Of a stretch of 64,000 bases of DNA, positions 2,597 to 55,078 are shown piece by piece. The DNA is from Muricea muricata (Eukaryota > Cnidaria > Anthozoa > Malacalcyonacea > Plexauridae): assembly GCA_963855995.1 (NCBI GenBank), contig OY979728.1, forward strand, positions 8,233,330 through 8,297,329. Reading direction: 5' to 3'. The notes beneath the pieces were generated by a model. The model saw only the letters and a list, made by a program, of their open reading frames with translations. It did not search any database and had not been told where the DNA came from. The translations under genes were made by a program, and so were the position numbers. Every line of letters starts with the position of its first letter. Position 1 is the stretch's first letter.

Positions 2597-3657
2597 TTAA
2601 TTAGCTTCCTTTCCCACGGGCTTTGCGCGCAGACCTGGCTGCCGTTCCAATGTCCCGAACAGAGGATTCTCAAACGATCGAGCATGGCCGACCTGTGGCG
2701 ATTCCACACTGCGTTTCGTACCGTACAAAGGATTTATAACCATCGCAGACTCATCTTCCTGCTCATCAAATCCATATAGGGGATTGATTTCCGCACTCGT
2801 TGAGAGGTGATGACGAAACATGACGTCACGGTAATGTTCGTCGTCCTCTTCCGGCAATCTCACGTGATCATACTGCTCACGATTACGTAATGCTTGTTGG
2901 AGATTAAACTTCTGAGAGCGATCGGCATGACAGGCGAAAAGAACAACAAACAAAAATAACGCTGCTCCTAAACTGGCCAGAAGGTAAATAGACCATAGGG
3001 GTAGTTCACTTGTACTTCCTCCAGTCGAGGCTGATGCATCCAAACACTCCGATTTACCCAAGCTATTTAATGTGGGGCATAAGAAATACGTGAAGGAGAA
3101 CTTTTTAGATGTATAGGGCGGATAGCCGTGCTTTTGAGAGCAATTTTTCAATGCATTTGTTCGACCGAGAGAGCAAAGAAAGTCCGTTCTTGAAAGAGCC
3201 TGGCGACCCACTCTTGCAATCACAGGTACTGAAATATTGTCGCCCGAATTAACTTTAACACTCTCTAAGACACTAACGTCGCTCAAATTGGAAGAGAATC
3301 CCTCTTTATCATAAACTTCGATCACATTCTTCAGCCAATCTTCCAGTTCAATTCTCATATCAGCGATAACTCGAGAGCTCCGAACATCAACCCCTGCCTT
3401 CCTTAAAACGTCCACCAGCTGTTTACCATCAAAATACAAGATGGTCACATACTTACTCGAAAAGCACACATCTTTACTATTTTGCTCACGAATGTTTCCA
3501 CCTTCACTCTCTTCAGATTCCTTATCATCTTCATAACCGAAGTTTAATGGGTACGGGAGGTACCACTGACCGTTCGCACAAATTCCTTCACTCTCGTCTT
3601 TCTTTCGCTCACAACGTGAACCGTTATATGCCCCATTGCACGTACACTCATACGACC
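2597..3657 (-). CDS. Common exon 32 (terminal): EGF-4 end, membrane-proximal domain, transmembrane helix, NPLYG tail
   Basis: Starts GSYECTCNGAYNGSRC, completing EGF-4. About 215 residues follow without a recognised domain; they hold several cysteines and I see no SEA cleavage motif. One transmembrane helix (IYLLASLGAALFLFVVLF) leads into an intracellular tail of about 110 residues. The tail has NPLYG at 2771-2785, NPLYG at 2720-2734 and NPLFG at 2654-2668. These resemble PTB-domain docking or endocytosis motifs. Stop codon at 2597-2599. Confidence 0.88.
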
Positions 3658-36600: not shown

Positions 36601-39600
36601 TGATAAATTCAAAACAGGACTTTTAAATTTGATTTCAGGTCAACTGTTCAATTTCGAAAAATCTTGAAAACTGAACAGTCTGTTTCTACAGGTGGATTAT
36701 TCGGATTCGATCATAAACTATATCGGGACTGTGACCGTCCCTTTTGCAATAAGTTCGAATATTCGCCCGCTTTCGGGATGCGTGACATCCACTTGTAGGA
36801 TGATAATCACTTGTAGGCAGATAATCATGCAAGCTAAGATCGTAGCGTGCGAAAATCTTATACAAAGTACTCAACATTTTGCGAGAGGGCCTGCAACTGC
36901 CCGCAATAAATTGAACTCTTTAACCTGCCCTGCCTTCCATTTGTATAAAAAATCTGAGTAGTTAGAATCCATGTAAATGAACACGGAAAATAGCAATACC
37001 AGTATGAAATAAAAAAAACTAGAGCTGTATATTCTGTTTTATAGTTTCGGGTAGTGAAAGAATCTATATCTTTCGAGTGCTTTTCACTGCACTACCTACA
37101 CTGGCAGCAATTACCATATAATGAACTATCGTTTGGTTGCAGTTTGCGGGATATATATATGTATGGTTTGATTTAAAGTCACGTAACATTTATTCAAGCT
37201 TGCCTGTTCATATTTATAAGACAAAACACACTCCAAAAAACAACATCTTGTAAACTCAAGATTCGAGCTTTTAAAAACAAGAGCACAATTTTGCGGTGAC
37301 TTTGGAATAGAGTCGAAATATCACCGCAAAATTGTTGTCTTGTTTTTAAAAGCTCGAATCTTGAGTTTAAAAGATGTTGTTCGAAGTGTGTTTTTGCTTA
37401 TATTTTATTAAATTGTCTGCTGGTAATGGTTTTTTGTTCATATTTGCCCAAGCAACGTCTGTATTCAACAGATTCTGTTTAGTGTAAGACAATCTTGGTC
37501 ATTTTTCAAGAGTGCATATCAGTTACGTCGTAGAATGGGTTCAATTCAATGACATCAAATCAACTATTGAATATTGATGTTATGATATCCAATGTTTGCA
37601 TCCAACAAATTCTTGAGATACTTCCTAGTTCACAATAAACTCTCACTTAGTAGCAGCAGAACAACAGAACATTGATTTATTACATAAATTTTGTTTGATG
37701 TCGTCAAAGCGTTTATTCATTCGATGAACACTCAAGATTAAGTGATGTGGTAGCCAAGTTTACAAATAATGATATTCCCAACTTCCTGACCTTGTCACCT
37801 TGAACAAGTTCAGACAAGCCTTGGTACTTCCAGAAGAATTTTTATTTGTCGAAAATAAACACTTGCTTTATTGTGGTTTCTGGCAAGCTCGTATTGAGTG
37901 TTTGTATTCAAATAGACTACAATGCTGGACGCATTAAAACGACAGACGAGTAAGTTTGTGTAAAGCGAATCATGATTTCCTCATTGTGGTTTAATTTCTC
38001 ACTGGCTCTAATGAATGTTTGTATGAATTGATTCTGAATCTTGAATCTGAATCTTGAATTCTTGAATGGACAATAATAATTTCTTGAGAATACATATCTG
38101 GACAAGCTATTCACCACTAGCAAATTATGCTGACATTTCAACAATAAAAAATGCCCAAAGCCGCCCGGTATGACGCAGCATGAAACCGCGCGCTCTTGGG
38201 GTTCCCCCAACACGCAACGAAATTTCGCGAAATCAGAGAAATTGTCGAAGAAATCGTAAATAATAGGGGAATTATATCCGTGTCATCCAGCATTAATTTA
38301 AGTTTTTAACTTTTAAGAAATGTCAGTCATTTCATTGCGTATTTTTTTTTGTTATGTCTGAGCTCGCTTATATCAAAATGGTCATGCAGTAGGTAGTGTT
38401 TTTATCGTCTTGACATCTTGCCTGGTTAATTCAAGACGTGAAGGCCAAAGCGAGATTTAGTTCAGCCAAATTAGTTTGATCAATTTTCTACTCTGCGCGG
38501 ACGAAATACTATGTTTCACCGCCCAATTGTTTTCGGGATGTTATTGAAATCTTTTTATAATCTCATTCTGCCTGTCAGCGTTCCCTGTTAGGGAAAACAA
38601 GATTACCTAGAGTAAACCCACGACTAATTGCAGCAGAGCGCTGGCTAACTCAAATAAAGCTCAAAAAACGACCTTTGACGTACAAGAAGCACACTAAGGC
38701 CACAGGCATGTCTATTTTCGCATTCATTTTCGTAAGAGCAATCCTTCGCACAACGCCGCACAGTATATATTACATTACATCGAGCTATTTTAAGAAACTA
38801 TAGAAAATTGTTTTTCGCTTGAATTTTGTTTCCTCACTAAAGACCATAAACTTTACGCACTACTGGCGTTTCAAATTTGAGTTTTAGATCCCTTCAAACA
38901 TACAGTATAGTACAGCTGTTCTTCTTCAGAAAGAAAGATTAGACAAAAATCATGCCCAATTACAATATTGAGCATAAACAAAGCCAATAGTTTTGAGCGC
39001 ACGTAAAACAACAAGAACTGAAAAAAGCTACTAAGCTTTTGGGAGGGTAGGGGGTTGTATCCTTCTTTCCGGCCCATTAACAACATATCGTGTAACAGAA
39101 ATTATATTGATCAAGTTATGATTTCCACGCAATTCAGACACGCCTACCGTCCATTCCCGCATTTGCTTTGTTGAGTTCTTGTGCTCGGACATCGCCGCCC
39201 TCCACATCGTTCGCTCGCATCAATCCTCATATTGCGCGAGCGAGTACCATAACCACAGGTGACGGAACAAGAGGACCAACTCAGCCAGGTGTAGCGACAG
39301 TTAATAGGACAACACGTATTGGGACATCGAGTTGAATCTTTTGTATAATAACTGCATCGTCCACCGCAAGATGCTGAAGTAGCGATACTTCTTGTCCGTG
39401 TTTTGACGCCACCATACCCGCATGTTGCTGAACAAGAACTCCATCGACCCCAACCGTAATAAGTGCAGTCCCTTCGATAACACGGTGGGGGCGATCGCCT
39501 CCGTCGACGAGGGCAAGCATTGGTGTGGGTAAAAACGTACAGTAATATTACAGCGAAAAGCGCTAGTCGCCGAAAGCTCATTCTCTTGTAGAAGTAACCA

Positions 39601-42600
39601 AGACTCTCGGATGTTCTTCGCAACTGTCAGTCACTTTGAGTTGAATTATGGGTCGAAACACAGCTTTTCCACACAGTAGGATTGACACGTGATTGCAAAA
39701 TGATGCTGACTCGCAATTGGTTATTTCCCAACCAACTATTTATCCAATAAAGATAAAACTATCGATTAGGTAGGCCGGTTTCCCAATCAAGTAAACACAC
39801 AAAGTTGGAGTGCGTTGCCAAAAAAGTGTGAATTCGTAGTACAGTAAAAGTCCGCATTTTTCAAGTTAGCCTAAACAGGTATTATATAATTGTAGCTTAT
39901 TATACAACTTTGTTAAAAAGTGTCCAAATAACTCGCAAAACGAGTACAAATATACAGCGATATTCGGACAGTTGGTTATTGGTACACATGGTTATTTGTA
40001 TAGTAGGAAACCGGTTTGACAAACTGACGTGTTTTGAATAAAATTCAAATTTAATGAGCGCACAATTCTTAAACCGGTTTGACGAGTGAATTGTTTGGCC
40101 AATCAAATTTTGCTTCAGCGCCTCGGTACTTCATGTATGCTAATTGGGTTGTCGACATCTCAAGTTTCTTTATAGGATTCCTTTTCAAAAGCACTGAGTT
40201 GTATAATAAATAGCTTATGAGATGTTTTGGTGTACAATATCGCTCGGTATATTTTTACTCGTTCTTTTTATTTTGACTCGCCCTGCGGGCTCGTCAAAAT
40301 ACTGCAGAACTCGTAAAAATATACAGCGATACTGTACACTAAAACATCCAATAAGATATATATATATTGTACTTGTTAGGAGGCAGTGTTTGTCTCTTTA
40401 TACGCTGGAAAACAGATTCTTGTGGGAAGAAAACGTACATATATGCAGTTTCTAATAGAATTAGCATGTTCTGAGACAAATCTATGGCGAACAAAACGTA
40501 ATCTCAGTCTAACAGGTTCATAAAATTTGTCAAATTTAATGGTGGATGGTAATGTTAGTATGCTGGATTTCGCCAGAATAACCGAATTTGCCAGATATTT
40601 TTCATAGTGTGGAATATACAATTAAACGACATATGCCAATATTTTCCTATTATACACTGGGTAAACAGGGACACCGGTGGTTAACCAAATGCTGAGCTAG
40701 GTTATTACCAAGAATGTTTGTCTGAACATATCAGACCACTGGACACAGCCACACAGGCCCAAAGATTGTTTTGTTCTCGCTAACGAACGTGTCTGTGCTT
40801 GCATCTTAAAATAAGGCGCTCAAATTTGATAATAGAGTTCGCTTGTTTGCCCAGTTTGTTATCTAAGAAGTCAATATTTGGCCGAAACGATAACAAGTTT
40901 TATCAACGTTTTAGTTCACACAAAGGCACGTTATATAGGAATGAATCAAAACCAGTATGTGGTTATACGTAGGTTACCTCCAATAGCTACGCCTTTGGGC
41001 GATTTGACTGTAGAGATCGTCCATGTACAATCATGTCAAATAAATGAGATAATCAAACTTACTAAGTTGTAATATACATTCAAGACGACAGAACTAAAAC
41101 AGGTGTAAAGGGCTTCAGTACTCCTCAAATGTTGGGTCTGACCCACTCTCGCCCCATAAGCCAAAAATGATAACCCAGTCAACTCCCGCCTTGTGAACAG
41201 CTCGTTAAAGAAACCCCGCAGTAAAGGACACTTTGTCAATCCCCGGCTAAAACTGTCATAAATTGTAATGCAGTAGCACTCTCAATTACGGACTATATTA
41301 GGGCATAGTGAACATTTTACGCGGTCTCCAACAAAACATTTTCATTTTTCTTCTCTGGTTACAACGGACAACTTGAAAGTATTTTTCTCTAAATGCAACA
41401 TGATGGTAGTTACAGTTTTTGTTTATTAGAAAAAGTACATGACAAAAAGCTCAACTAGAAGTTGGAGAAGGTTCCTTGTGTGTTTGCGGGGTGATTGAGG
41501 ATCCGGGTTTGCGGACCGAAAACTTTGCGATGATAAATTTACGTGGTGTTTCCACAAAATTATACTCTGATTTTTAAGCTGGAATAGACTCAACATTTTT
41601 AGGCGTGCCCATGGCGTGCTCGTTATAACGACTTTACAAACGTGTCTCTGATATATTTCAGGGTGAAGAACATCAGTAAAAAATAGTAATGCTTTTTGTC
41701 TTAAAAATGTCCAGTTCATTGCAACTTCTATAGGTAGTTGAGGTTTGTGTGAAAGTACTTCAGCAAGAAAGAAGACAATGAAAGTATGTTACTGTACGAA
41801 TAAAAAATCAACTTGCTGTCATATCAAAAGATTGTACAATGTGAGCAGTTAATATTGACCCCTCCCCCAAAATGATCGACTTGTTGAAGGGCATTTCCTA
41901 CAAATGCTGAAACGCTATTGAGAGTAAAGCAACAAAAAACAGTGCCCGCAGTGTCGTAATAGCTAGAGTCCGTAATAGCGAGAGCAATCAATTGCAATAC
42001 AATTTACAATAGTTTTGCCTAGGGATTTACGAAGTGTCCTAAATAGCGGTAATTCAATAAGTATGTGACAAAAACTATACTGATCAGGTTGTGATTTAGC
42101 TACATGCAGTTCAAACACGCCTACCGTCCATCCCCGCAACTGCCTTGTTGCGTGCTTGAGCTCGGACATGGTTTGCCTCCACATTTTTCACTCGCATCAA
42201 TCCTCATCGCGCGCGTACGAATACCATTTCTACCACAGGTGACGGAACAAGATGACCAACTAAGCCAGGTGTAACGACAGTTAATAGGACAACATGAGTT
42301 GGGACATTTAGTTTGATCGTTTACTTTATTACTACACCGTCCATTGCAAGTTGCAGCCCTATCAACACTTCTTGTGCGTGTTTTGATGCCACCAAATCCA
42401 CACGTTGCTGTACAAGAACTCCATGAGCTCCAACTGGTATAAGTACAGTCCTTTGCCTTGCACGGCGGGGGCGAAGGGGATCTTCGACGACTCGGGCAGG
42501 CAGATGTGCGCGTAAAAACGCAGAATAATATTGTAGCGAGAAGCAATAGCAGCCGCAGGCCCATATGGAATAATTCTGTGGTAGAAGTGATGTGAAGCTC

Positions 42601-45600: not shown

Positions 45601-48600
45601 TTAAAAAGTTAAAATATTATATTTCACATGCATGGTGACGCAGCAGAATCGTGTGAGCGCGCACTGAGCAATATCAACTGGGTTTTTTTTTGAAAATATC
45701 ATTTTTAGTCAAACTTTCAATTCTTTCCGGCGACAAAGCAATTGCAAAAATCACGGCAAAAATATCATAAATAAAAAAAAACACGTATTAACTGACACAA
45801 CAGATAAAAACACGTATTATTTAACTGACACACACGAGAATGGAAGTTGATGAGAGTTGGCGCCAGGAATTGTCGCAGGCGACGTTTTAAGCTTCATATT
45901 GAGAAATAAATGGATTCAATAAAATACATGATTGTGTTGGGAAAGCATCAAGTACAGCGGCCAGCCAAAATCGCGCGAGTACCAGCTCACATCGTTTCAG
46001 ATAATCACGCAGCATCAACGTGCACAGACAAATTAACTATATAGGACTTTGACCTGTCTATATAATTACATACAGTTCTAATAATAACATTGTCTGTGTC
46101 GAAAATCACTGAAACTGTCAAGGTCAACTTTTATCACGATATAATCATACAAAAGAACTGTATACAACCTATAACGCTGACAGACGAATATTCGCTTCTA
46201 TATGTATGCATTAGTGCAATAACAATAATGCATGATAAATCATTCTGTTATTGCTTCCACAATGCAGAAGCTAACTTGCACGGCAAAAAATCATCGCAGT
46301 GTTCGGGCTAGTCGGAAGTGAATTGACCTTTTCACACAAGAAGTGCGTTCATTTGCTCGACTGTAACTGTAAGTAACCGGCGAAAAGGAAAAGATCAAAA
46401 ATGCGTATACATAGCATTACCACCCAGCTATAGAAAATTAGCCAGTTGTTGAGAATTATTGTGTGCTGTTATACATAGCAGTGTTTATTTCATATAGTTA
46501 ACTCCATTTTTTTTGGTGCGTACCCCATTGCATGAACAGATGAAGTCAAAATTATACATGCTACAACAGCCGCGTTTAAATTTGTGCAGGATATAGCATT
46601 ATATATAGAGCTGGTAGAAAACACAAGATATTGACAACAGGAAGAAACCGAGAATATCATCTGACAGCGCAGAGAAAAATGAAAAATTGGTTGCCTCAAG
46701 CAGGATTTAAACTCGCATCTTCGGACTTCAAGACTGTCACTCTACTAATTGGCGCTATCGACCCAACTGGAATTGGTAGCAATAAAAAGCTAAACAGTAA
46801 TCATATATAGTGACAGGCTATAATGACAGCTAACTATACATGATGTCAGAGAAAGCTTCTTCCGTTTATAATCCTCCCCCTAAAGCACCAGCTACGCAGG
46901 CTAGTGCCATTCAAGCGTGTTTTACACGTCGCATTACCGTCGCGTCGAATGCAATTCAAACAATAGATGCGGCTATCTATCGTTTCAATCGCATTCGACC
47001 CGACTGAAATGCGACATAAAAACAAGCCTTGCACATAGTCATAGACAAAAATATACGTTTTTTCATTACCTGAAACGATATAACAACAGAATTTGACGTT
47101 TCGAGGCTCTCGGCACTCCATGAAGGTAAGATACTTGAAACGTCAAATTCTGTTTATATCGTTTCAGCGAAAGAGCAGTAAGAACCTATATTTTCGAGTG
47201 CTTCGACACTGAGAACATCAGTTCAAAGAGAAGAATACCTTCCATCCCCACAGCGCCGGCTTTGCGAGCTGGCTGGACAGCTTGTGCCACCACAACTAGG
47301 GTTTCTCCAAACTACCGTACTTCGTGTTTGGGTCCCGTACGAACACGTAGCAGAACATCTACTCCATGCTGTCCATGAATAGGAACAAGCAATCGGGCAA
47401 CATGTTCCAGGACAGCTTGTTGACTGTGACCTCGTATAACACCTGCCACCGCAGTATGCGTAACTTAGAATACGACGAGTTCTCGTCTTTCTTCCATAAT
47501 AGCCGCAACTGGCCGAGCAACTCCCCCAGCTACCCCAAGACGACATGACACAATTGCGAGCGTAGCATCTTCTTCGTCGGCGGCGTCTGCGCCAAGCGTC
47601 AGACAGTTCAGTGAGGAATAAAATCCCGAAAAGAACTGCGATAATCAGAGACCTAGGAATACGCATCTCGTTGCTTCGTCCTGCTCGCAGATAGAAAGTG
47701 CGCAACACCTAATCCTGATCGATATGAAAAAAACAATGCGTGTTTGGGCAAGGTGCGTTTACATATGACGTCATGACATTGACAAGGAAATCAATGACAT
47801 ATTTCAGAGTCAAAAACTTCTTTCATTGTCAATGTAATACATTATATTATTCTGGAAGCTTAGTATCTATTTGTGTGTCTGTTTATACTATTCTGGAAGC
47901 TTAGCATGTATTTGCGTGTGCTTAAAGCAATTGCTTCTGACAATTAATTTAGGACATTTGTGTTACGTAACATGGTCAAATCGTTAGCAAGCTCCCAGTT
48001 TCAATTTTAAGCCATCAATATTAACAGACAGAACTAATCAAGGTACATTTTGCCCAACTACTAGCCAGCTGCAGATGCTTATAGGCGTTATTTCCTCTAG
48101 CTTTGCGAATGTTTTTTAAAAATCACCTGCTGACTATATGGTAAGTCGTCACCAAAATATTTCGTGCACTTAAATTGGACTTGCTACCAACCCCAGTTGA
48201 CTCGATAGCTCGATTGATAGAGCGGCGGTCTGGAAACCCGAAGATGCGAGTTCAAATCCCGCTCGAAATCGACAACGAATTTTTCGTTGTTCTCTGCAGT
48301 GTCACATTAATATGAATCTATATGGTAAAACATCTGGATTTTCGATATCAAATAACCACGAAATGTAAACATGTAAATATAAAGTATTTTACCTTGGTGC
48401 AATTTTAGTATAAGTAAACATGTGATGGCGAGTACAATTTGAGATTAATATAATACGAGTGATGTTTGAAAATATTGCCAAAATTTGGCAAGCCACTGGG
48501 GTGAGTCCAATTTGGCGACGTTTTCAAACATCACGAGTATTATTAATCCCAACTTGTACGAGCCACATCCCATGATTATTTGTTTAATATTACTATAACA

Positions 48601-51600
48601 AAATTATGCACCTCAACCATAAAGGATACACAGATATGCAACTCGGGGTGTTTATTGTGTTACGAGATGGCTTGGGTACGTCATACGCATGCTCGTTTTT
48701 GGCAAGTACACAAGCGAGATTTTCATGAGGAATTAGATAGGAAAATGTCAAATAAACGGCGATTTTAAGAAAACTTTCCGCTAGAGTGCCTTGGTTGACA
48801 GAAATATATAAAAAGAAGTTGCCCTGTATATTTCAAGCAACAAATGAATTCATTCACCAAGTTATGTTTTTGTCCTGGTCGCTTTATTTTTCTGTAATAC
48901 ATTTATATTGAAATTTGAACTAATGTACTTGCCAGAAATGCGTGTGGATATGACGTGAGAAAACGAAATCATGGGCCAAGCATCCCCAGTTGCACATCTA
49001 TGTATACTTGATCTATGCCTCTTGAACCGCGATCTTAAAGATCCAAGCGTTGGGAAATTATTAGCACTGATGAAGATCCGAGCTTACGGAACTAAAGTTT
49101 TGCGAAAATAAATTCCACAAAGTTAATGTGATACAGATACTTACTATTCAAACTCATTAGAAGGAACTAAGAACTCGTGTTTGTTATTTCGTGAAGGTGT
49201 TAAAGCGTTTTGATTAAAAAACACCGCAACGCCACCGCGAGTTTCGCACGCACAGTACTTGCAGGAGCCAATACGGAACCAGTGTCAGCAGGTAATCTGG
49301 TAAATATTTTTACCCGATCCAGCGGCTGGTTGCTCAAAGCCGGGTTAGCACTAACTCTGGGTTAGAGTTTAACTCAATGTTTCAGTTTCTGTATTTCTAC
49401 ATATCCGTTTATTTCAAAACTTTACAAACCTAAACTACTATTGATCCAGACAAAATTTCTAAAGAAATATCTCTCAATACTATTAACAAGCTACTGGAAA
49501 GTTTGGAAAGAAATTTTACGTTAACCCAGGGTTAAGCTAACCAGGTTTTGAACAACTGGCCCCAGATGGATAGGTATGGACATTCTTCCCCTGCTTTAAA
49601 TAATTACAACATTTAGAACAGGAGAAAGTGGTTCTACCTGATCCAACCAGCGTTGGTAAAAAAATGCATCGCAATGTGCGGCCCACCGCCCACCTTTCTC
49701 TCGAATGTGGTGTATTGTTAAGCCCCGTACAGACGAGCAAGCTTACCTTGACAAGTTTCTTAACGAGTTCACTTACGCGTCTGTACGACAAACAAGTTGT
49801 CCTTGACAAGTTGTCCTTGACAAGTTGTCCTTGACAAGTTGTCCTTGACAAGTTGTCCTTGACAAGTTGTCCTTGACAAGTTGTCCTTGACAGGATTTAT
49901 TTGTTCCTGTGTACGCGAAATTTGACAATATTTTTATTGACAACTTTTACGAGGCCGCGTGAATTAAGTAGGTAAACCAGCAATTCCCTTGTCAAGTGTT
50001 CCTTGTTGCACGTACACACGAGCAAGTTTCCTTGTCGAAAAGTTGGTACGACTAGCTTTTAAACCAGGCTCCCTAATTGTCAAGGAAAAATTATCAATTT
50101 TTTCGCGTACACACGAGCAAATAAAACTTGTCAAGGAAAACCTGTCAAGGAAAACTTGCTCGTCTGTACGGGGGACGTCATACATAATCGAGGGCTAAAT
50201 AATCAACGGTGGTCCACTTTAAAAGAGCTTACCTTCCATCACCACATCTTTCAGTTTTGGTAGAACTTGGGCAGGATGCTCCACCGCAAACAGGACTCCT
50301 GCTAATGATCAGTTTACTTTTTCTTACGCCATAACCACATGTGACTGAACAAGATGACCAAGAGCTCCAACGATATTCACACGGTATTGGACAACACGTT
50401 CCTGGGCACGGCAACGACTCACTAAAACTGTATGGACACTTTCCACCACACCAATTTATATCGAGCTGAAAAAAACAGATGATCAAGTTATGAATTAACA
50501 TAATCAGGCTAGCAGATTTCTTGATACTACTGTTAGTTTCTAATGTTCTACAATGGGCAGTTTCGAAAATTACAACAACTTACAACTTTCGAAAATACTA
50601 ACATAAGTGTTTAATGTTAACTAAATTTACATCTCGCAGTCAAAAAGAAAGACTGAATTACATGTAAATTGTACATTTAAAAACTGTATAAAATTACTAA
50701 CAATATAATATATTAAAATATGAAATACAAATAAATAAATATTATTACTAAATCCAAATATCAATACTACAATATTAACTATTTATAAAATTATTATCTT
50801 TTAGCTTCTAAAGCGTAGTGATTTATAAAGGAGTTCTTAAAACGGTTTGTCTTAAAAGTAGGTAAAATGTATTTAGATCTGAGGTCAAATTCATCGTTAT
50901 TAAGGGGTGGTTATTTAGGTTGAATAGTTTATGATTATTGTTCTCGCTTATAGATTGGAATGATGGTTTACATAATGTCTCTCTTCTCTCATACAGAGTC
51001 AGCATTCCCGTCTCTTCTAAGGTTTTCTTATAACTTGATTCAGAAAACAACAATCGGAGAGCTCGTTTTTGTATTCTTTCAGTCTGGTTTGATAAGTAAT
51101 CCGGTAAGCTACTATGGAATACTTGACAACTCAAGGGTACATACAGTATCCCTTTTTCTCAAAAAGTTATTTAGCTCTGTCCAGTATATGTTGCCCCAAT
51201 AATAGAGATAATAAACCTGTTTTATAAGTCAAATAGTTATGAGTTAATGCATGTATAATGCTGGATAGTATACTCCAAAAAAAGCTTTCCACGCAAGCCA
51301 AGGACGTACCCAGAACTTTGAAAGGGAGTGGAGAGTTCTATGGAAACTAATAATTCAATTTGACAGCCACGGAGTCATTGCCGTCCAGCCATTTCGGTGT
51401 CAATGACGAGGTAAAAATCGCTTCAATATCCATCGATGGAGGTGCACATGACATTTTTGATCGTTCTCACCCTGTCTTTGCCATCGTATCGTCTTTCCTG
51501 AACTTCTCGGCTGCCCCCCCCCCCTGGTTACGTCCATGGCCCGAGGACGCTTGGGCTAACGAATTATTTAAAAATATCATTTCCTTGTTCTTTCAGGATT

Positions 51601-52573
51601 CAAACAAGCATTTAAGTACCGAGAAGGATCTTGATGACATATAAAGACATTTATGACGTAAGATCAACGCCACAATTTGAAAAATGAAGACATGCCTAAA
51701 CACGACCCTGGGCCATCGCAATTATACAGCGAACTTCAATCAACCGAGTATTACGGCGAGATTGCAAGACATTCGTGGACAGGCAGAAATAGAAATCTAA
51801 GCAGCGAGATGTCGTAGCATTACCATAGATACGTAATATTTTAAAAGCGCTTGGAAATAAACCTGACTGTTTCTTAATTGAAGACCTTGTTTCCCTTAAT
51901 ACCTCAGGCTTTTTAGCAAACTCGAAATCTGTTGGGGTCTTCAAGGCCAATTAAAAAACCATGTCAACAAGAGGCCAGGGATGTTTTTTTTTAATTTCAG
52001 TACCGAGCATGCACCCAGTCGACTCTCGCGGACGTTTTGGCGGAAAAAAAAACTTGACCCTCCATAAACTTACAAAGGGCTTTTTGGTGATCCCGCCGAT
52101 GATTTTTATGTATTGAAATAAGTCGCCAGACTTAATTAAAGTTCAAATCACAAGGAACTAAAATGCTGGGTATATATATGACGTCCCGTATTTCTCATTA
52201 CTGTTGCTGCTTAAACAACCTTTAGCTTGTCACTTTACTGTGTTCTACCACTATGAAACTAATGCAGTTCTTATGAGAGGCACCATGTAAACAGTCCATA
52301 AATTTTTAAATAATGTGACTCAAGCGACGAGGCAATCATCGCTATTCATTACACAACTCGTGCTTTACATCCTACCATAGTACGACTCCTTTGTTTTCGA
52401 CCAGAATTCCCACACGTTTTTGAACATTTTGACCATTTACTCCAATCGCTTATAACACAATCTGAAGGAGTGCAGATATTTCCACCAGAGCCACCGCACC
52501 CAAGTGTAGAAGGAACAACAAAAAGAAAGCTGATTGCGGCGGATAAGATTACCGTACAATCACGGAAAGCCAT
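2597..52573 (-). CDS. Giant TSP1-EGF-sushi-cadherin-EGF transmembrane protein gene with alternative first exons (whole locus)
   Basis: This entry spans the gene; exons are listed separately. Thirty-two common exons (35883 down to 2597, 11,086 coding bases) join with GT-AG borders and consistent phase throughout. With any one of four 5' cassettes the product is about 3,837-3,841 residues. Domain order: signal peptide, 8 TSP1 repeats (2 variable, 6 common), one EGF-like, one sushi/CCP, about 26 cadherin repeats, 4 EGF, an unassigned cysteine-containing domain, a transmembrane helix and a short tail with NPLYG, NPLYG and NPLFG. Cadherin repeats show the calcium-site signatures L(N/D)YE, D.D and D.NE.P. 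By family knowledge it should be a cell-surface adhesion or receptor protein. No catenin-binding tail, laminin-G domain or GPCR module is seen. The gene model is strong; the biological role is unknown. Confidence 0.88.
4745..5744 (-). CDS. Common exon 31: cadherin repeats 25-26 and EGF modules 1-4
   Basis: 1,000 bases. LNYERLDS and LNYDVRSS close the cadherin array. EGF modules follow: DPCVPLNNC..., DDCVNS... (long and atypical), NIDECHLESF... and DIDDCLLNPCG.... The D-I-D-E-C starts are the calcium-binding EGF signature. Ends in the fourth EGF at G|GTAAGT, phase 1. Confidence 0.88.
6011..6111 (-). mobile_element. tRNA-derived SINE, first part (interrupted)
   Basis: On the minus strand a pol III B-box-like GAGTTCGAATCCCGC and an A-box-like GTAGAGCGGCGG are seen, followed by the family tail (GAACAACGAAAAATTTG). 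The copy is cut at CCAATGG and resumes after 6477, so a hairpin element has inserted into it. Confidence 0.7.
6112..6482. mobile_element. Hairpin MITE inserted in a SINE
   Basis: Long imperfect inverted repeat with a near-perfect core at 6240-6340 (GTATACTTTTGTATTACG and its complement). A related copy lies at 32345-32640. The flanking SINE is split by it. Confidence 0.7.
6478..6890. repeat. Inverted pair of SINE 5'-flank/tail segments
   Basis: Arms at about 6478-6655 and 6670-6838 are inverted copies that share the CACGAAATATTTTCGTGACG and TAGATTCATATTAATATGAA segments. They form a potential 170-bp hairpin next to the interrupted SINE. Confidence 0.65.
6956..7188 (-). CDS. Common exon 30: end of cadherin repeat 24, start of 25
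   Basis: SINCSDNGIPPLYISKSF, then VNDVNEPPTGIIL and a repeat with an extra cysteine pair (LNCTDPDANQTC). Donor GAT|GTAAGT, phase 0. Confidence 0.8.
7781..8518. mobile_element. Large hairpin MITE with Tc1/mariner-like ends
   Basis: Ends TACAGGGTGTATAAAAAAAA and its inverse TTTTTTTTATACACCCTGTA, with TA at both borders. The arms (about 7781-8043 and 8183-8518) are nearly perfect inverted copies. No coding capacity. An outer inverted pair (7637-7665 with 8549-8577) encloses it. Confidence 0.8.
8952..9260. mobile_element. Hairpin MITE, CAGGGTGTCCCAC ends
   Basis: Inverted arms starting ACAGGGTGTCCCACAAAAAG and, inverted, ACAGGCTGTCCCACAAAATG. About 300 bp, non-coding. Shares terminal bases with the elements at 7781 and 57465. 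Confidence 0.75.
9505..9608. repeat. Short hairpin element
   Basis: Inverted arms around GGGATGTATGCATATACAG and CTGTATATAGCATACATCCC, with a GC-rich loop. In the intron between exons 29 and 30. Confidence 0.6.
9689..9947 (-). CDS. Common exon 29: cadherin repeat 24
   Basis: ENITVKILDANDKPSD, then a divergent cadherin repeat with LDHERNATI. Ends A|GTAAGA, phase 1. Confidence 0.78.
9978..10215 (-). mobile_element. tRNA-derived SINE copy
   Basis: Same family as 6011: minus-strand GAGCTCAAATCCCGCTCGAG B-box region, A-box region near AGCTCAATGGGCC, and the tail ATTCATATTAATCTG. Complete but diverged. Sits in the intron between common exons 28 and 29. Confidence 0.65.
10689..10816 (-). CDS. Common exon 28: rest of cadherin repeat 23
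   Basis: LTFYIEESQLLLKDSDRLDYEKQ, ending CAG|GTACAA. The junction with exon 27 gives TTG (Leu). Confidence 0.75.
11348..11498 (-). CDS. Common exon 27: start of cadherin repeat 23
   Basis: VIDVNDKPVAIIF, then VKENAKNSSTVG. The donor AACT|GTGAGC (phase 1) is needed to avoid a stop codon further on in this frame. Confidence 0.74.
11717..11896 (-). CDS. Common exon 26: rest of cadherin repeat 22
   Basis: 180 bases, phase 0-0, with LNYEEKSSYVIKVVAKDNGEP. The acceptor follows the repeat-filled intron. Confidence 0.8.
12120..12537. repeat. Pentanucleotide array (AAGGT)n in intron 25
   Basis: Near-perfect AAGGT repeats, about 73 uninterrupted copies between roughly 12165 and 12533 with imperfect edges. 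It lies in the intron between common exons 25 and 26. Open frames across it are artefacts of the repeat. Confidence 0.95.
12631..12716. repeat. Pentanucleotide array (AAGAT)n in intron 25
   Basis: About 17 copies of AAGAT. One base differs from the neighbouring AAGGT array, so it is probably a variant spread by slippage. Confidence 0.93.
12726..12957. repeat. Pentanucleotide array (TATGG)n in intron 25
   Basis: About 38 copies of TATGG, with TATGA/TATGT variants at the left edge. It ends three bases before the donor consensus of common exon 25 (12962). Confidence 0.93.
12963..13142 (-). CDS. Common exon 25: end of cadherin repeat 21, start of 22
   Basis: 180 bases, phase 0-0: INCTETGNSTF, then VTDVNEAPYNLTISKSSVEEN. 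Its donor GAC|GTTAGT borders the pentanucleotide arrays directly. Confidence 0.78.
13304..13443. repeat. Near-perfect hairpin element with GC-rich tip
   Basis: Arms ACTTATTGACTGAGACC...CAGTATGTTTTGTGGACC and their inverse, meeting at a cccgaggcgaagccgaggg tip. About 140 bp. Confidence 0.75.
13449..13697. mobile_element. MITE with TATATACTGAGTGTCAAA ends
   Basis: Terminal inverted repeats of about 18 bp (TATATACTGAGTGTCAAA and TTTGACACTCAGTATATA) bound a 250-bp non-coding segment next to the 13304 hairpin. Confidence 0.6.
13984..14055 (-). CDS. Common exon 24: 72-base exon with the degenerate calcium motif of cadherin repeat 21
   Basis: Very short exon (24 codons) with LDLE in place of LDYE. 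Acceptor CTGTAG; the donor is ACG|GTAACG at 13984 or CGC|GTAACG six bases earlier, both phase 0. Least certain exon of the chain. Confidence 0.6.
14183..14302 (-). CDS. Common exon 23: start of cadherin repeat 21
   Basis: 120 bases, phase 0-0 (VPENSEEGFVIGDLSVSDPDN). A typical cadherin first half, followed by an unusual YSCKVV strand. Confidence 0.76.
14340..14575. repeat. Interspersed repeat family R1, copy 1
   Basis: Shared by segments at about 30318-30490, 35976-36190 and 43612-43866. Marked by gttactgaacatgttt-like and atatccctggtgtcattg-like blocks and by mirrored ends (gctatccaccgg-like). Probably a MITE family. Confidence 0.55.
14654..14867 (-). CDS. Common exon 22: rest of cadherin repeat 20
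   Basis: Contains LDHENVTKF and the linker LDVNELPDNLILDNSK; phase 2 in and 0 out. The donor AAG|GTATCG is modest. Confidence 0.75.
15328..15536. repeat. AACAATGTTGTC-rich hairpin repeat
   Basis: Mirrored caacaatattgttcagc blocks. Related copies near 25960-26080, 29515-29890 and 54240-54360. Non-coding, self-complementary. Confidence 0.5.
15561..15768 (-). CDS. Common exon 21: end of cadherin repeat 19, start of 20
   Basis: Encodes GLNLTQTFKITVRDTNDRPTD and the first strands of repeat 20. Ends phase 2 at AG|GTAATT, a weaker donor but the only in-phase choice. Confidence 0.75.
16539..17115 (-). CDS. Common exon 20: cadherin repeats 18 and 19
   Basis: Begins IEDVNEPPNDIHLSN. Repeat 18 carries the HRCQL / VQCADSG cysteine pair. 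Repeat 19 has LNYENRSSW, as in repeats 7 and 13. Ends phase 1 at G|GTAGGA. Confidence 0.83.
17225..17600. repeat. ACAAGTTGT/CAACAACTTG-rich low-complexity repeat
   Basis: Many short mirrored words (caacttgcaac, acaagttgt, ttgttacaac). A related stretch lies at 15850-16045. Probably remnants of one hairpin family. Confidence 0.45.
17719..18206 (-). CDS. Common exon 19: cadherin repeats 16 (rest) and 17
   Basis: GRFSVDNK..., then two LNYE motifs and the linker TILDKNDPPENVTV. The cysteine pair of repeat 16 matches those in repeats 4 and 10. Phase 1 in, phase 0 out. Confidence 0.84.
18385..18512 (-). mobile_element. Second tRNA-derived SINE family
   Basis: On the minus strand: GTGGTATTGTGGTCACCACT (A-box-like), then CTGGGAGGCCTGAGTTCAAG (B-box-like). 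Different from the 6 kb family. It lacks a clean acceptor-stem pairing, so it is not a functional tRNA. Confidence 0.45.
18959..19166 (-). CDS. Common exon 18: end of cadherin repeat 15 and start of 16
   Basis: Starts MDKRFTIIIKNVHEAP and ends LDDDAG in phase 1. Aligned with the starts of exons 12 and 15. The donor is GTCAGT. Confidence 0.8.
19480..20081 (-). CDS. Common exon 17: cadherin repeats 14 and 15
   Basis: Starts DRNEKPSEIILS. Repeat 14 has the VALSNKMCLVHGAGSC loop and LNYE; repeat 15 has NHEE. This one exon equals exons 10+11 (or 13+14) fused, so an intron was lost here or gained in the other copies. Ends TGG|GTAAGT, phase 0. Confidence 0.84.
20420..20895. repeat. Direct duplication of about 100 bp around a hairpin
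   Basis: TAGAGTCAAACTCTT...AATAATAAATATAGAATG occurs at about 20430-20510 and 20795-20880. Between them lies a sequence with mirrored CTCTTAATTCAATCTAATGG-like words. Suggests insertion with flank duplication. Confidence 0.5.
21085..21262. repeat. Hairpin element with GCATAAAT ends
   Basis: CCATAGACCTCATGCATAAA... mirrored by ...TTTATGCATAAGATCTATG, with ATCCTAGGAA and CCAATA blocks in both arms; about 175 bp. Confidence 0.6.
21286..21516 (-). CDS. Common exon 16: rest of cadherin repeat 13
   Basis: 231 bases (ATISTIDPDN... LNYENKSSW). Phase 1 in and out; donor G|GTTAGT. Confidence 0.8.
22290..23349 (-). CDS. Common exon 15: cadherin repeats 10-12 and start of 13
   Basis: 1,060 bases. Encodes the end of repeat 9, three full repeats (LNYE, LNYE, LDYE) and the first strand of repeat 13. 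Ends VIG with donor G|GTAAGT, phase 1. Confidence 0.88.
24023..24439 (-). CDS. Common exon 14: cadherin repeats 8 (second half) and 9
   Basis: Begins VAISNSVCLRKGGASC and then LNFE; repeat 9 has LDHE. 417 bases, phase 0-0, with donor AAA|GTAAGT. Confidence 0.86.
25281..25430 (-). CDS. Common exon 13: cadherin repeat 8, first half
   Basis: 150 bases, phase 0-0 (LSNLQIKENCDANTIVG). Equivalent to common exon 10; starts supermodule 2. Confidence 0.82.
25505..25855. mobile_element. MITE family R2, copy 1
   Basis: About 350 bp with TGATATGTATTAA-type ends and internal cggccatgttgaatggc blocks mirrored on both sides. The same element lies inverted at 34160-34505. Confidence 0.65.
26112..26287. mobile_element. 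hAT-like MITE, copy 1
   Basis: Inverted ends around GCGTAGCCAGCCC and GGGCTGGTTACGCCACTG, about 175 bp, hairpin forming. The CAGTGGCGTA-type end resembles hAT transposons. Confidence 0.6.
26635..27972 (-). CDS. Common exon 12: end of cadherin repeat 3 and repeats 4-7
   Basis: The largest cadherin exon, 1,338 bases in phase 0-0 and uninterrupted. It carries the calcium motifs LNHE, LDFE, LDYE and LNYE of four repeats, with D-N-E-P-type linkers between. The corresponding parts of supermodules 2 and 3 are split by introns. Confidence 0.9.
28059..28150. repeat. Tandem duplication of a 49-bp unit
   Basis: AGTTCCAGCAAGCTTTGCTC...TTACCTGGCA occurs twice in a row with few differences, in the intron between exons 11 and 12. 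Confidence 0.65.
28511..28936 (-). CDS. Common exon 11: cadherin repeats 2 (second half) and 3
   Basis: Begins VALSNGDCLRHGGDFC, a two-cysteine loop before LNYE; repeat 3 carries LDHE. 426 bases, phase 0-0. Homologous to common exon 14 (417 bases). Confidence 0.86.
29284..29433 (-). CDS. Common exon 10: cadherin repeat 2, first half
   Basis: 150 bases, phase 0-0 (LSNHRIAENSDIGTVVG). Same length, phase and position as common exon 13, so it marks the start of the first six-repeat supermodule. Confidence 0.83.
29515..29890. repeat. AACAATGTTGTC-rich hairpin repeat, larger copy
   Basis: Arms GCCGACATTGTTCAATATTG and a mirrored TTGACAACATTGAACAATC end enclose about 330 bases, in the intron between exons 9 and 10. 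Confidence 0.5.
30021..30129 (-). CDS. Common exon 9: cadherin repeat 1, C-terminal part
   Basis: Completes cadherin repeat 1 (RYDLRIRSTDSGNPP) and its SDLNERPTSIQ linker. Phase 2 in, phase 0 out. Confidence 0.82.
30318..30490. repeat. Interspersed repeat family R1, copy
   Basis: Contains TCAGTAACCGGCAAAACC and AATATCCCTGGTGTCATTGC, in the inverse orientation to the 14340 copy. Confidence 0.5.
30497..30725. repeat. Hairpin element with ATAGAATAAGAA ends
   Basis: ATAGAATAAGAATACATAGAAGGGCCACTC is mirrored by GAGTGGCCCTTCTATTCATT...TTCTATG. A related fragment with TGCACTGCTGAGTGG lies near 16060-16150. Confidence 0.55.
30835..31031 (-). CDS. Common exon 8: cadherin repeat 1, N-terminal part
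   Basis: Begins ILLSGSHSVSEN and includes a DPNSQDSHTYTL strand and the LDYE calcium motif. Donor CG|GTAAGA, phase 2. Confidence 0.82.
31086..31254. mobile_element. hAT-like MITE, copy 2
   Basis: CAGTGGCGTAGCCAGCCC at the left with a decayed inverse at the right (TACGCTACTG). Same family as 26112-26287. Confidence 0.6.
31810..32009 (-). CDS. Common exon 7: rest of sushi domain and link to cadherin array
   Basis: Continues the sushi domain (GTLLGTTC...C.LKG....C...GTW......YC), with the usual four cysteines and the Trp. Ends with INDPPTQ, the usual lead-in to a cadherin repeat. Confidence 0.8.
32025..32225. repeat. Degenerate TATGG/TATAG repeat patch
   Basis: Imperfect runs of tatggta-like units in the intron before common exon 7. 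A decayed relative of the TATGG array in intron 25; a second small patch lies near 32750-32830. Confidence 0.6.
32345..32640. mobile_element. Hairpin MITE, second copy of the 6.1 kb element
   Basis: TGTAGAAAATATAGCC...AATTTTGTA is mirrored by TACAAAATTTGCCAAC...GGCTATATTTTCTACA. A small GC-tipped hairpin (32250-32310, GAGGGGCCGCAGGCCCC) precedes it. Confidence 0.65.
32850..33000 (-). CDS. Common exon 6: EGF-like module and start of sushi domain
   Basis: Encodes a cysteine-rich EGF-like module (NNGCEHKCTNGVCSCNAGY...C), then the first part of a sushi/CCP domain (DCGTVSLTYCAPG). The end is phase 1 inside the sushi domain. Confidence 0.78.
33166..33285 (-). CDS. Common exon 5: TSP1-8
   Basis: A 120-base, phase 0-0 exon that encodes one short TSP1 repeat (GQWSSWGNCDQKC). 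It sits between a TTTCAG acceptor and a CAG|GTATTC donor. Confidence 0.82.
33430..33707 (-). CDS. Common exon 4: rest of TSP1-6 and TSP1-7
   Basis: Completes TSP1-6 (NSFRTRTVQRP...CGG) and encodes TSP1-7 (GAWSSWSICDNGCGQG). Ends CAG|GTAAAC, phase 0. Confidence 0.83.
33813..34032 (-). CDS. Common exon 3: TSP1-5 and half of TSP1-6
   Basis: Starts phase 0 with VSSWSRWQAC and contains one complete repeat plus the WSAWSSCSSTCGQG half of the next. WxxW motifs typical of C-mannosylated TSP1 repeats are present. Donor G|GTGGGT, phase 1. Confidence 0.83.
34160..34505. mobile_element. MITE family R2, copy 2 (inverted)
   Basis: Inverted homologue of 25505-25855: TTGATATGTATCAAAGCTGG end, GCGGCCATGTTGGATGGCCC block, and a CAGTCTTAATACATATCA end. 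Confidence 0.65.
35141..35271 (-). CDS. Common exon 2: rest of TSP1-4
   Basis: Acceptor CTGTAG, phase 1. Completes the WSKCSSSCSVNSG...TRSR part of the repeat and its last cysteines. Ends CAA|GTAAGT, phase 0. Confidence 0.83.
35657..35883 (-). CDS. Common exon 1: TSP1-3 and start of TSP1-4
   Basis: The first exon shared by all cassettes. The acceptor GTAG|A supplies the third base of an Arg codon, then CCPRNC and a TSP1 repeat (GSWGSWGSCNAAC). The next repeat starts CCRRNCVMSSWTAW and is cut in the middle at donor A|GTAAGT, phase 1. Confidence 0.85.
35976..36190. repeat. Interspersed repeat family R1, copy
   Basis: Contains GTTACTGAACATGTTTGGAA and a GATAGC-type mirrored end; similar to 14340-14575. 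In the intron just upstream of common exon 1. Confidence 0.55.
37205..37420. repeat. Long hairpin element
   Basis: Arms of about 70 bp: AACATCTTGTAAACTCAAGA...CGGTGA and the inverse TCACCGCAAAATTG...TTTAAAAGATGTT. Lies between cassette V4 and common exon 1. Confidence 0.7.
39148..39581 (-). CDS. Variable cassette V4: signal peptide plus two TSP1 repeats
   Basis: Single exon of 434 coding bases, the cassette nearest the common exons. The start at 39581 gives a signal peptide (MSFRRLALFAVILLYVFTH), then a basic/Pro linker, TSP1-1 (YGWGRWSSCSATCGYGG) and TSP1-2 (YTWLSWSSCSVTCGYG). It ends CGNG plus CG at donor CG|GTAGGC, phase 2, the same arrangement as V3. Read-through gives CGG TAG. Similarity to V3 extends past the donor and into the upstream DNA, so the pair arose by tandem duplication. 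Confidence 0.78.
39735..39744 (-). promoter_or_regulatory. Candidate TATA-like element of cassette V4
   Basis: On the minus strand this reads ATAAATAGTT, about 155 bases upstream of the V4 start codon. The same ten bases occur upstream of V3, and both lie just beyond a stretch of shared upstream sequence. The transcription start is not known, so function is inferred from position and conservation only. Confidence 0.3.
40190..40360. repeat. Hairpin element with GC-rich tip
   Basis: GAGATGTTTTGGTGTACAAT...TTTTGACTCGCC is mirrored by GGCTCGTCAAAA...GTACACTAAAACATCC. It helps explain why the V4 upstream interval is longer than that of V3. Confidence 0.65.
40655..41045. repeat. Duplicated upstream block of cassette V4
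   Basis: Clearly similar to 43108-43500. Shared words include TTAACCAAAT, AATAAGGCGCT, TTCGCTTGTTTGCC and TTTAGTTCACACAAAGGCAC. With the V3/V4 exons this marks a tandem duplication. Confidence 0.75.
42125..42564 (-). CDS. Variable cassette V3: signal peptide plus two TSP1 repeats
   Basis: Single exon of 440 coding bases. The start at 42564 opens a strong signal peptide (MGLRLLLLLATILFCVFT); an in-frame Met at 42669 would put 35 mostly polar residues in front of it. A basic/Pro linker leads into TSP1-1 (SSWSSWSSCTATCGFGG) and TSP1-2 (YTWLSWSSCSVTCGRNG). The end is CGDG plus CG at donor CG|GTAGGC, phase 2; CG+A from the common exon restores Arg. Read-through gives CGG TAG, an immediate stop. 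Close paralogue of V4. Confidence 0.78.
42685..42694 (-). promoter_or_regulatory. Candidate TATA-like element of cassette V3
   Basis: ATAAATAGTT on the minus strand, about 121 bases upstream of the V3 start codon and identical to the element upstream of V4. Conservation between the duplicated cassettes supports a separate promoter for each, but no transcript evidence is available. Confidence 0.3.
43108..43500. repeat. Duplicated upstream block of cassette V3
   Basis: Counterpart of 40655-41045, in the same orientation. It begins about 545 bases upstream of the V3 ATG versus about 1,075 for V4. May hold shared regulatory DNA. Confidence 0.75.
43612..43866. repeat. Interspersed repeat family R1, copy
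   Basis: Contains AATATCCCTGTTGTCAATTG and CAGTAACTGG blocks, like the copies at 14340 and 30318. Lies upstream of cassette V3. Confidence 0.5.
44887..44965. repeat. GATGAAGATCCGAGCTTACGG repeat tail
   Basis: One of three related 70-base segments (also about 41490-41560 and 49063-49130) ending in TTTACGTGGTGTTTCCACAA. Likely the 3' end of an unidentified retroelement or SINE. Confidence 0.5.
45135..45320. repeat. Long hairpin element with GC-rich tip
   Basis: AATACATGGGTGC...AATACCAGATTTATTTCTCGTGTTGAACATGATAT is mirrored exactly around a CACTCGTTCGCTGCGCTCACTCG tip. Confidence 0.75.
46655..46793 (-). mobile_element. tRNA-derived SINE copy (diverged)
   Basis: Minus-strand GAGTTTAAATCCTGC B-box with the family's flanking sequence (TGCCAATTCCAGTTGGGTCG side). 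Older, more mutated copy in the cassette region between V2 and V3. Confidence 0.55.
47066..47170. repeat. Short hairpin, TGAAACGATATAA ends
   Basis: CTGAAACGATATAACAACAG...GACGTTTC and its inverse. It lies about 60 bases downstream of the V2 donor, within the intron. Confidence 0.65.
47239..47666 (-). CDS. Variable cassette V2: signal peptide plus two TSP1 repeats
   Basis: Single exon of 428 coding bases. I chose the second Met (47666) because it directly precedes a clean signal peptide (MRIPRSLIIAVLFGILFLT); an upstream in-frame Met at 47708 adds 14 polar residues. After the signal comes a run of about eight Arg, then TSP1-1 (SSWGSWGSCSASCGYYG) and TSP1-2 (YSWTAWSRCSATCSYG). It ends CGDG plus AG at donor AG|GTATTC, phase 2. 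Without splicing it would add Tyr-Ser-Ser-Leu and stop at 47223. A TGACGTCA (CRE-like) site lies about 100 bases upstream of the ATG. Confidence 0.78.
47766..47773. promoter_or_regulatory. CRE-like palindrome upstream of cassette V2
   Basis: A perfect TGACGTCA palindrome about 100 bases upstream of the V2 start codon. It matches the CREB/ATF consensus. A single 8-bp match can be chance; its position gives modest support. Confidence 0.25.
48140..48320 (+). mobile_element. tRNA-derived SINE copy
   Basis: Plus-strand copy: AGCTCGATTGATAGAGCGGC (A-box), GCGAGTTCAAATCCCGCTCG (B-box), then ACGAATTTTTCGTTGTTCTC and the ATTAATATGAATC tail. Lies between cassettes V2 and V1. Confidence 0.7.
48422..48566. 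repeat. Hairpin element
   Basis: GAGATTAATATAATACGAGTGATGTTTGAAAA is mirrored by TTTTCAAACATCACGAGTATTATTAATCCC; 145 bp. Confidence 0.65.
49722..50178. mobile_element. MITE with internal 14-bp tandem array
   Basis: Inverted ends CCCCGTACAGACGAGCAAGC and CTTGCTCGTCTGTACGGGGG. The left interior holds about seven copies of TTGACAAGTTGTCC (49795-49890). About 455 bp. Confidence 0.75.
50233..50465 (-). CDS. Variable cassette V1, exon 2: rest of TSP1-1 and TSP1-2
   Basis: The acceptor (polypyrimidine tract then CAG) at 50465 opens in phase 0 and completes TSP1-1 (WCGGKCPYSF...CPGTCCPIPC). A full second TSP1 follows (YRWSSWSSCSVTCGYG) and ends CGDG plus AG, at a strong donor AG|GTAAGC in phase 2. 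Joined to the common exon at 35883 this gives an Arg codon and then CCPRNC. Read-through of the donor gives AGG TAA, an immediate stop. Confidence 0.78.
50700..51240 (-). pseudogene. Truncated non-LTR retrotransposon (LINE) 3' end
   Basis: A minus-strand frame at 50823-51134 reads VFHSSLPDYLSNQTERIQKRALRLLF...SYKKTLEETGMLTLYERR. This matches the familiar C-terminal region after the reverse transcriptase of CR1/Jockey-type LINEs. No catalytic YADD region remains; the frame is broken upstream and the 3' flank is AT-rich. An immobile relic in the V1 intron region. Confidence 0.65.
52376..52573 (-). CDS. Variable cassette V1, exon 1: signal peptide and start of TSP1
   Basis: First exon of the most distal cassette, 66 codons from the ATG at 52573. 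A hydrophobic signal peptide (residues about 7-24) precedes a short Gly/Cys segment and the first half of a TSP1 repeat (SDWSKWSKCSKTCG). The exon ends ATG|GTAGGA in phase 0. Joined to the acceptor at 50465, the TSP1 strand aligns without gaps to the other cassettes. V1 is the only cassette with an intron inside its TSP1 repeat. Confidence 0.75.
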
Positions 52574-52576
52574 TCA

Positions 52577-55000: not shown

Positions 55001-55078
55001 ATGTCCGCTCCCGAGAGCAGTGGAAAAAATCTAGCTGAGGACGATTGGGCGTTTGTGGACGTGCAAGGAACAGTGGTC
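55001..55078 (+). CDS. CCPG1-like exon 1: start codon and first LIR-like motif
   Basis: 26 codons from ATG at 55001 (context AAGATGT) to donor GTC|GTAAGT, phase 0. Contains AEDDWAFVDV, an acidic run before W-A-F-V, which fits the LIR consensus [WFY]xx[LIV]. The W lies at residue 16, close to where the CCPG1 LIR sits. Confidence 0.72.

Follow-up and report, generated by a model that had tools for sequence, protein, structure and literature searches.

Four tandem TSP1 cassettes as candidate alternative first exons of a single-copy TSP1-cadherin adhesion gene in an octocoral

The locus described here raises the question of whether four similar units on the minus strand serve as interchangeable first exons of one adhesion gene or are small genes of their own. 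We analyzed a window of 64,000 nucleotides from Muricea muricata (C13:8233330-8297329) and give coordinates as window positions unless a contig is named (Table 1); the genome searches covered one assembly of this one species (453 Mb, 74 contigs). From the sequence, we have good confidence that four open, homologous, and phase-matched 5′ cassettes stand before one single-copy adhesion gene, and we consider it probable that the four are alternative first exons joined to that gene.

Table 1. Features of the cassette locus and of the common gene, in window positions
Feature	Position	Strand	Description
V1 exon 1	52376..52573	(-)	Start codon, signal-like start, first part of TSP1-1
V1 exon 2	50233..50465	(-)	Rest of TSP1-1, TSP1-2, phase-2 donor AAG|GTAAGC
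V2 cassette	47239..47666	(-)	Single exon, two TSP1 repeats, weak phase-2 donor AAG|GTATTC
Noncoding block upstream of V3	43081..43452	(-)	76% identity with the V4 block, gaps excluded
V3 cassette	42125..42564	(-)	Single exon, two TSP1 repeats, phase-2 donor ACG|GTAGGC
Matching noncoding block upstream of V4	40624..41016	(-)	Counterpart of the V3 block
V4 cassette	39148..39581	(-)	Single exon, two TSP1 repeats, phase-2 donor ACG|GTAGGC
Acceptor of C1	35883	(-)	GGATGTAG|ATGTT, phase 2
C1, first common exon	35657..35883	(-)	Phase-2 acceptor, CCPRNC, TSP1 and start of next TSP1
Further common TSP1 exons	33166..35271	(-)	Model 35271-35141, 34032-33813, 33707-33430, 33285-33166; ends provisional
Open frame with Sushi domain	31807..32016	(-)	Model exon 31898-31810
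Cadherin-repeat exons	4745..31031	(-)	Last of them has EGF domains (5744-4745)
Last exon	2597..3657	(-)	Hydrophobic membrane-span-like segment and tail

Anatomy and history of the cassettes

Four homologous units, V1 to V4, lie on the minus strand, each opening with a start codon and a hydrophobic, signal-like segment that is followed by two TSP1 repeats; coordinates, Pfam matches, and hydropathy reproduced what the first-pass annotation had described in this respect. The coding lengths that it had given were also recovered (198 + 233 = 431 nt in V1, 428 nt in V2, 440 nt in V3, and 434 nt in V4, all 3n+2), and all four cassettes end in C-G-(D/N)-G plus AG or CG, followed by GT in the same register. 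V1 consists of two exons separated by a 1.9 kb intron, and V2, V3, and V4 of one exon each. Placing the V1 junction at 52377/50466 instead yields identical letters but leaves no GT. Two TSP1 stretches in every cassette scored above the curated cut-offs of PF00090 and PF19028, and the Pfam families found in the units were of the TSP1 type only. Peak N-terminal hydropathy was 2.58 in V1, 3.28 in V2, 3.10 in V3, and 3.02 in V4; the remaining 12 of the 16 minus-strand ATG open reading frames (ORFs) with 60 aa or more between 35900 and 54500 stayed at or below 2.24, and on the plus strand of the same interval one of six ATG ORFs reached 3.40 (the ORF at 40222).

The linker is Arg-rich in V2 to V4, and the paired TSP1 repeats inside the cassettes are connected by CCPIPC, CCPIAC, or CCPINC, the CCPRNC of C1 being of a similar kind. 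The cassettes contain WxxW and C-x-x-(S/T)-C motifs, which we take to match the sugar-attachment sites of TSP1 repeats and which fit with the cassettes being secreted folded modules. By sequence, the solved structures nearest to the V4-C1 join were TSP1 repeats of properdin and thrombospondin-1. Genome searches with V2 and V4 gave no extra two-TSP1 unit on C13 besides V1 to V4 and the common exons among the best matches listed, and a TSP1 profile built from the common repeats found nothing else credible in the window (best additional match, E 0.14).

The homology of V1 to V4 ruled out chance look-alike units. V3 and V4 are a segmental duplicate with 75% identity over 565 columns, a dS of 0.46, and a dN of 0.23; their dN/dS was 0.50 (bootstrap 0.30-0.82, 144 codons), with values of at least 1 in 0.2% of 2000 replicates. 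By part, dN/dS was 0.58 in TSP1-1 and 0.48 in TSP1-2, neither alone significantly below 1, and 0.44 (0.16-1.06) in the 33 codons of the signal-peptide part, where 3.5% of replicates were at or above 1, a value suggestive of constraint there. The similarity of the pair (39091-39630 versus 42064-42627) was highest at the start of TSP1-2, with 88% in one 60-column block, which could stem from gene conversion or constraint. In a tree of TSP1 repeats, the second repeats of V1 to V4 grouped together (94/95, slightly below the tool's 95/80 mark for firm support) and the first repeats of V1 and V2 paired (82/88); firm support was reached by just 1 of 17 inner branches, and the placement of the cassettes relative to C1 was not settled by the tree.

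If a single cassette (V1 or V4) were used and the others were decaying duplicates, the weak donor of V2 and the moderate constraint on V3/V4, significant in neither TSP1 repeat by itself, would find an easy explanation. We nevertheless regard this as very improbable, as all four frames have stayed open despite saturated or near-saturated synonymous change among V1, V2, and V3/V4. The five cassette pairs other than V3/V4 had pS values of 0.73-0.86, four of them beyond correction, and when a frame like V4, ATG included, was left to evolve neutrally in sets of 2000 simulated runs, 0.1% of the frames were still open after 0.46 changes per site and none after 1.0.

The noncoding block shared by the upstream regions of V3 and V4 contains a 25-nt identical run and stops in all frames, and the stretch between this block and the ATG was unalignable (50%, 374 gap columns). 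The block is the best candidate for a promoter or a 5′ untranslated region (UTR). No 11-mer, allowing one mismatch, was common to all four 1.5 kb upstream regions; since 15 of 30 control draws likewise had none, this result is uninformative. Long imperfect palindromes, possibly MITE-like elements, occur between the units and before C1 at 37215-37402, 40206-40363, 45151-45315, 46915-47027, 47048-47194, 48412-48581, and 49863-50158, with a self-match of 73-84% in six and 68% in the last. A divergent neighbor of V1, the plus-strand open frame at 58467-63410 (1647 aa), encodes an acidic protein with Glu/Lys/Gln-rich stretches.

The common gene and the junction at C1

Exons downstream of the cassettes were assembled with a dynamic-programming gene finder, a home-made toy whose exon ends are provisional; its splice weights, like those of all the splice scores below, are approximate. 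It was trained on cadherin-type codons, to which 13 Cys-rich exons from other contigs were later added; the first training overlooked the TSP1 exons and placed the gene start in a spurious frame at 39220, which was rejected. One model chain starts at 35883 and runs through TSP1, EGF-like, Sushi, cadherin, and EGF domains to a membrane-span-like segment and tail, ending at 2597. Sushi, cadherin, and EGF were above curated Pfam cut-offs, and the cadherin family PF00028 was above its cut-off in eight scanned exons (starting at 28936, 27972, 24439, 23349, 21516, 20081, 18206, and 17115) and below it in exon 5744-4748. The common gene belongs to the cadherin superfamily, its tandem cadherin repeats exceeding the Pfam cut-off. 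Exon 33000-32852 was below Pfam cut-offs, exon 9947-9692 had no Pfam match, and the last exon had no significant Pfam family; its tail, inspected by eye, carries two NPLYG motifs and one NPLFG motif. In the subset of exons scanned, no Ig or FNIII domain was reported, and TSP1, Sushi, cadherin, and EGF were found instead. C1 had one 100% match in the genome, itself, followed by V2 at 57%, and the tail of the last exon had one genome match, again itself. A simple repeat array at 11937-12771 (-) inside the cadherin gene gives rise to spurious long frames (PYLTL, PYHTI).

The A at 35883 turns the terminal AG or CG into Arg in all four cassettes, with CCPRNC next. The first-pass annotation had proposed 35883 as the only acceptor of fitting phase; the phase and the completed Arg bear this out, but the word "only" has to be dropped, as weak in-phase AGs lie inside V2, V3, and V4 at 47586, 42481, and 39498. 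The acceptor at 35883 stands at the 95.2 percentile of all AGs and that of V1 exon 2 at the 98.9 percentile. Scored against all GTs on the strand, the donors reached percentiles of 99.9 in V1, 98.7 in V3 and V4, and 92.2 in V2. The V2 donor score was 0.13, and just 1 of the 25 donors modelled in the constant gene was lower (-0.29). The strongest donor is that of V1, and the cassette closest to C1 is V4.

The internal AGs could, in principle, serve a serial inclusion in which a long V1 transcript would use all three and add up to six TSP1 repeats, perhaps with exon skipping. An unconstrained gene-finder parse does use all three, each in phase 2, and prefers a V1b-V2-V3-V4-C1 chain (score 631.3), whose entry point is a spurious frame at 51537 instead of V1 exon 1. 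However, a gene finder limited to one parse has no means of representing alternative first exons and gains from every coding stretch, which is why chaining is preferred. The three AGs reach only the 89.4, 63.6, and 71.1 percentiles, compared with the values given above for C1 and V1 exon 2, and the start codons and hydrophobic starts of V2 to V4 would become purposeless intron, yet the suggestive dN/dS of V3/V4 falls in that very part. Serial inclusion thus appears quite improbable. When one cassette was permitted upstream, each was joined to 35883, with scores of 528.0 for V1, 532.2 for V2, 536.5 for V3, and 547.1 for V4, versus 491.0 without anything upstream of C1.

Early stops, separate genes, and the paralogs

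Read through past the GT, V1 and V3 continue as CGDGR-stop, V4 as CGNGR-stop, and V2 as CGDGRYSSL-stop, so that an in-frame stop, absent from the first-pass annotation, follows immediately after the GT in V1, V3, and V4 and four codons further on in V2. These stops would be expected if V2 to V4, and perhaps V1, were separate small genes for secreted two-TSP1 proteins of ~145 residues ending in CGDGR or similar, with at most one unit feeding the cadherin gene. The similarity of V3 and V4 continues over 56 aligned nt past the GT (82%, with 77% in the coding part, gaps excluded) and could represent a 3′ UTR as well as an intron. We consider separate genes unlikely on several grounds. Phase-2 donors reading G|GTAA or G|GTAG generate an early stop of their own accord, so the stop is not decisive, and V2 preserves the GT register although the immediate stop is missing there. 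The GT is conserved across cassette lineages whose synonymous sites are saturated; if these bases were a mere Arg codon and a stop, the letters seen there would arise with a probability of roughly 0.003-0.005, one factor in this estimate being guessed.

Polyadenylation-type signals and coding scores also speak against separate genes. AATAAA or ATTAAA occurred 4, 1, 1, and 5 times in the 1500 nt after V1, V2, V3, and V4, respectively, versus 3.4 expected, showing no enrichment, with the nearest at 294, 749, 697, and 1152 nt. The gene finder slightly favored the donor over the single-exon reading (25.3 versus 22.8 in V2, 26.1 versus 24.0 in V3, and 34.7 versus 32.7 in V4). Were the V units removed, no minus-strand ATG ORF with 60 aa or more and a similarly hydrophobic start would be left between 35900 and 54500 to serve C1. 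Finally, a tblastn search with 12 common-exon peptides against 36000-56000 found no copies of downstream exons between the units, all of the matches (34/34) falling inside V1 to V4, whereas paralog pairs elsewhere in the genome have private downstream exons.

Those paralogs provide a precedent for the early stop. Seven paralogous TSP1-EGF genes, two on C2, two on C16, one on C3, and two on C8, were traced downstream; a related first exon on C18 was left out. Like the cassettes, their first exon contains a signal-like start, an Arg-rich linker, and TSP1; unlike the cassettes, they have predicted junctions in phase 1 and one TSP1 followed by EGF, and the pairs on C2 and C16 were duplicated as whole genes, their own downstream exons included. 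The C3 paralog matches V4's place with an E value of 2.0e-11. By protein fit, the next exon begins with ag|A(C/T) in all seven, completing an Asp in phase 1 (e.g., DVNEC). A stop nevertheless stands at the second codon beyond the GT-spanning codon in five of them, both C16 members being without it, so an early stop is compatible with a real first exon, which weakens the case for separate genes. One paralog first exon, at C16:6541426-6541842, lacks a GT where the donor would be expected. The C2 pair (C2:16253732-16259329 and 16288144-16294749) consists of two tandem copies of a Cys-rich TSP1-EGF gene, downstream exons included, that lie ~34 kb from each other. The alternative first exons put forward in the first-pass annotation have survived the tests of phase, single-copy target, absence of private exons, paralog precedent, and V3/V4 purifying selection, the splices themselves being predicted.

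Proposed mechanism and known parallels

We propose that the locus holds a single-copy gene of an octocoral, which encodes a large transmembrane adhesion protein of the TSP1-Sushi-cadherin-EGF type and has four duplicated alternative 5′ cassettes, each of which would contribute two TSP1 repeats together with a start codon, signal peptide, and linker of its own. Transcription would begin upstream of one cassette, most likely from one promoter per cassette, and the phase-2 donor of the chosen cassette would be spliced to the common acceptor at 35883. The outermost TSP1 pair would thereby be exchanged while the remainder of the protein stays constant, and this exchange may alter what the outer end of the protein recognizes. 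A cell- or tissue-specific choice among the cassettes could plausibly be made by the promoters.

The closest parallel to V1 to V4 is the chelicerate sDscam family of spiders and scorpions, sDscam-β in particular. Two reports on sDscam describe tandem 5′ cassettes that encode the N-terminal one or two extracellular domains, have a promoter before each, and are spliced to common exons of a single adhesion receptor, and also mention intron loss within cassettes (PMC4835542, PMC5775551); the two exons of V1 and the single exons of V2 to V4 look like such a loss. However, sDscam cassettes encode Ig domains of Dscam, number up to dozens, and occur in arthropods, whereas here there are four TSP1 cassettes in an octocoral, and cassette use is backed by transcripts in sDscam but predicted here from the genome sequence.

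Clustered protocadherins come second. Pcdh-α and Pcdh-γ, of the cadherin superfamily, have variable 5′ exons with a promoter each, spliced to one constant exon set, and the Pcdh-β cluster consists of tandem single-exon genes without constant exons (PMC7811963). In Pcdh-α and Pcdh-γ, it is the cadherin ectodomain that the variable exon specifies, the constant exons being intracellular, whereas at this locus variation would be confined to the outermost TSP1 pair and the cadherin repeats belong to the common part. The first-pass comparison with protocadherins thus holds for the variable 5′ exons before shared exons but not for the variable part, and is a loose one. The Pcdh-β cluster, with its tandem single-exon units and no splicing to constant exons, would be the model if the cassettes were separate genes. 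Vertebrate clustered protocadherins are under CTCF/cohesin control. Among cnidarian extracellular proteins, coral skeletal mucin4-like proteins have N-terminal TSP1 repeats but mucin4-type domains in place of cadherin repeats, and a cassette arrangement is absent from the passages describing them (PMC4890752).

Tandem 5′ cassettes are a described route to adhesion-receptor diversity in vertebrates (Pcdh) and chelicerates (sDscam). Among the top-listed matches in the open-licence PMC literature, alternative 5′ cassettes were not described for any cnidarian adhesion gene, nor was a TSP1-cadherin gene of such a layout, which does not establish absence from print. To our knowledge, this locus may represent a third independent origin of 5′-cassette adhesion-receptor diversity and the first non-bilaterian one, with the octocoral using different promoters in different cells, tissues, or polyp types to swap the outer TSP1 pair, which might act as a code for recognition or substrate binding; we put the chance of this somewhat below even. 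If true, the cassette layout would have arisen again outside Bilateria, on a different receptor with a different variable domain, and would depend neither on a complex brain nor on variable domains of the Ig or cadherin type. The locus offers a concrete place to study adhesion-receptor diversity in an early-branching animal.

The assembly itself fits its octocoral assignment. The mitochondrial contig C74 (19,292 bases) carries cox1 and a MutS domain (PF00488, E 2.3e-32), with cox2-like and atp6-like frames, named by eye, on the opposite strand, a gene order that presumably agrees with the octocoral order. Mitochondrial MutS is reported in all octocorals (PMC8438181), and its presence on C74 agrees with an octocoral genome. 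No relatives were confirmed in viral and bacterial/archaeal collections, where animal genes are not expected and a negative carries little weight. On the large contig named C1, distinct from the exon C1, another COX1-like frame (C1:38414782-38416095), almost full-length and containing one TAA, is either a nuclear copy of mitochondrial DNA or foreign DNA, and the same contig has a single GFP-family match at C1:100068659-100069087 (E 9.2e-12) with three TAA in its read-through frame.
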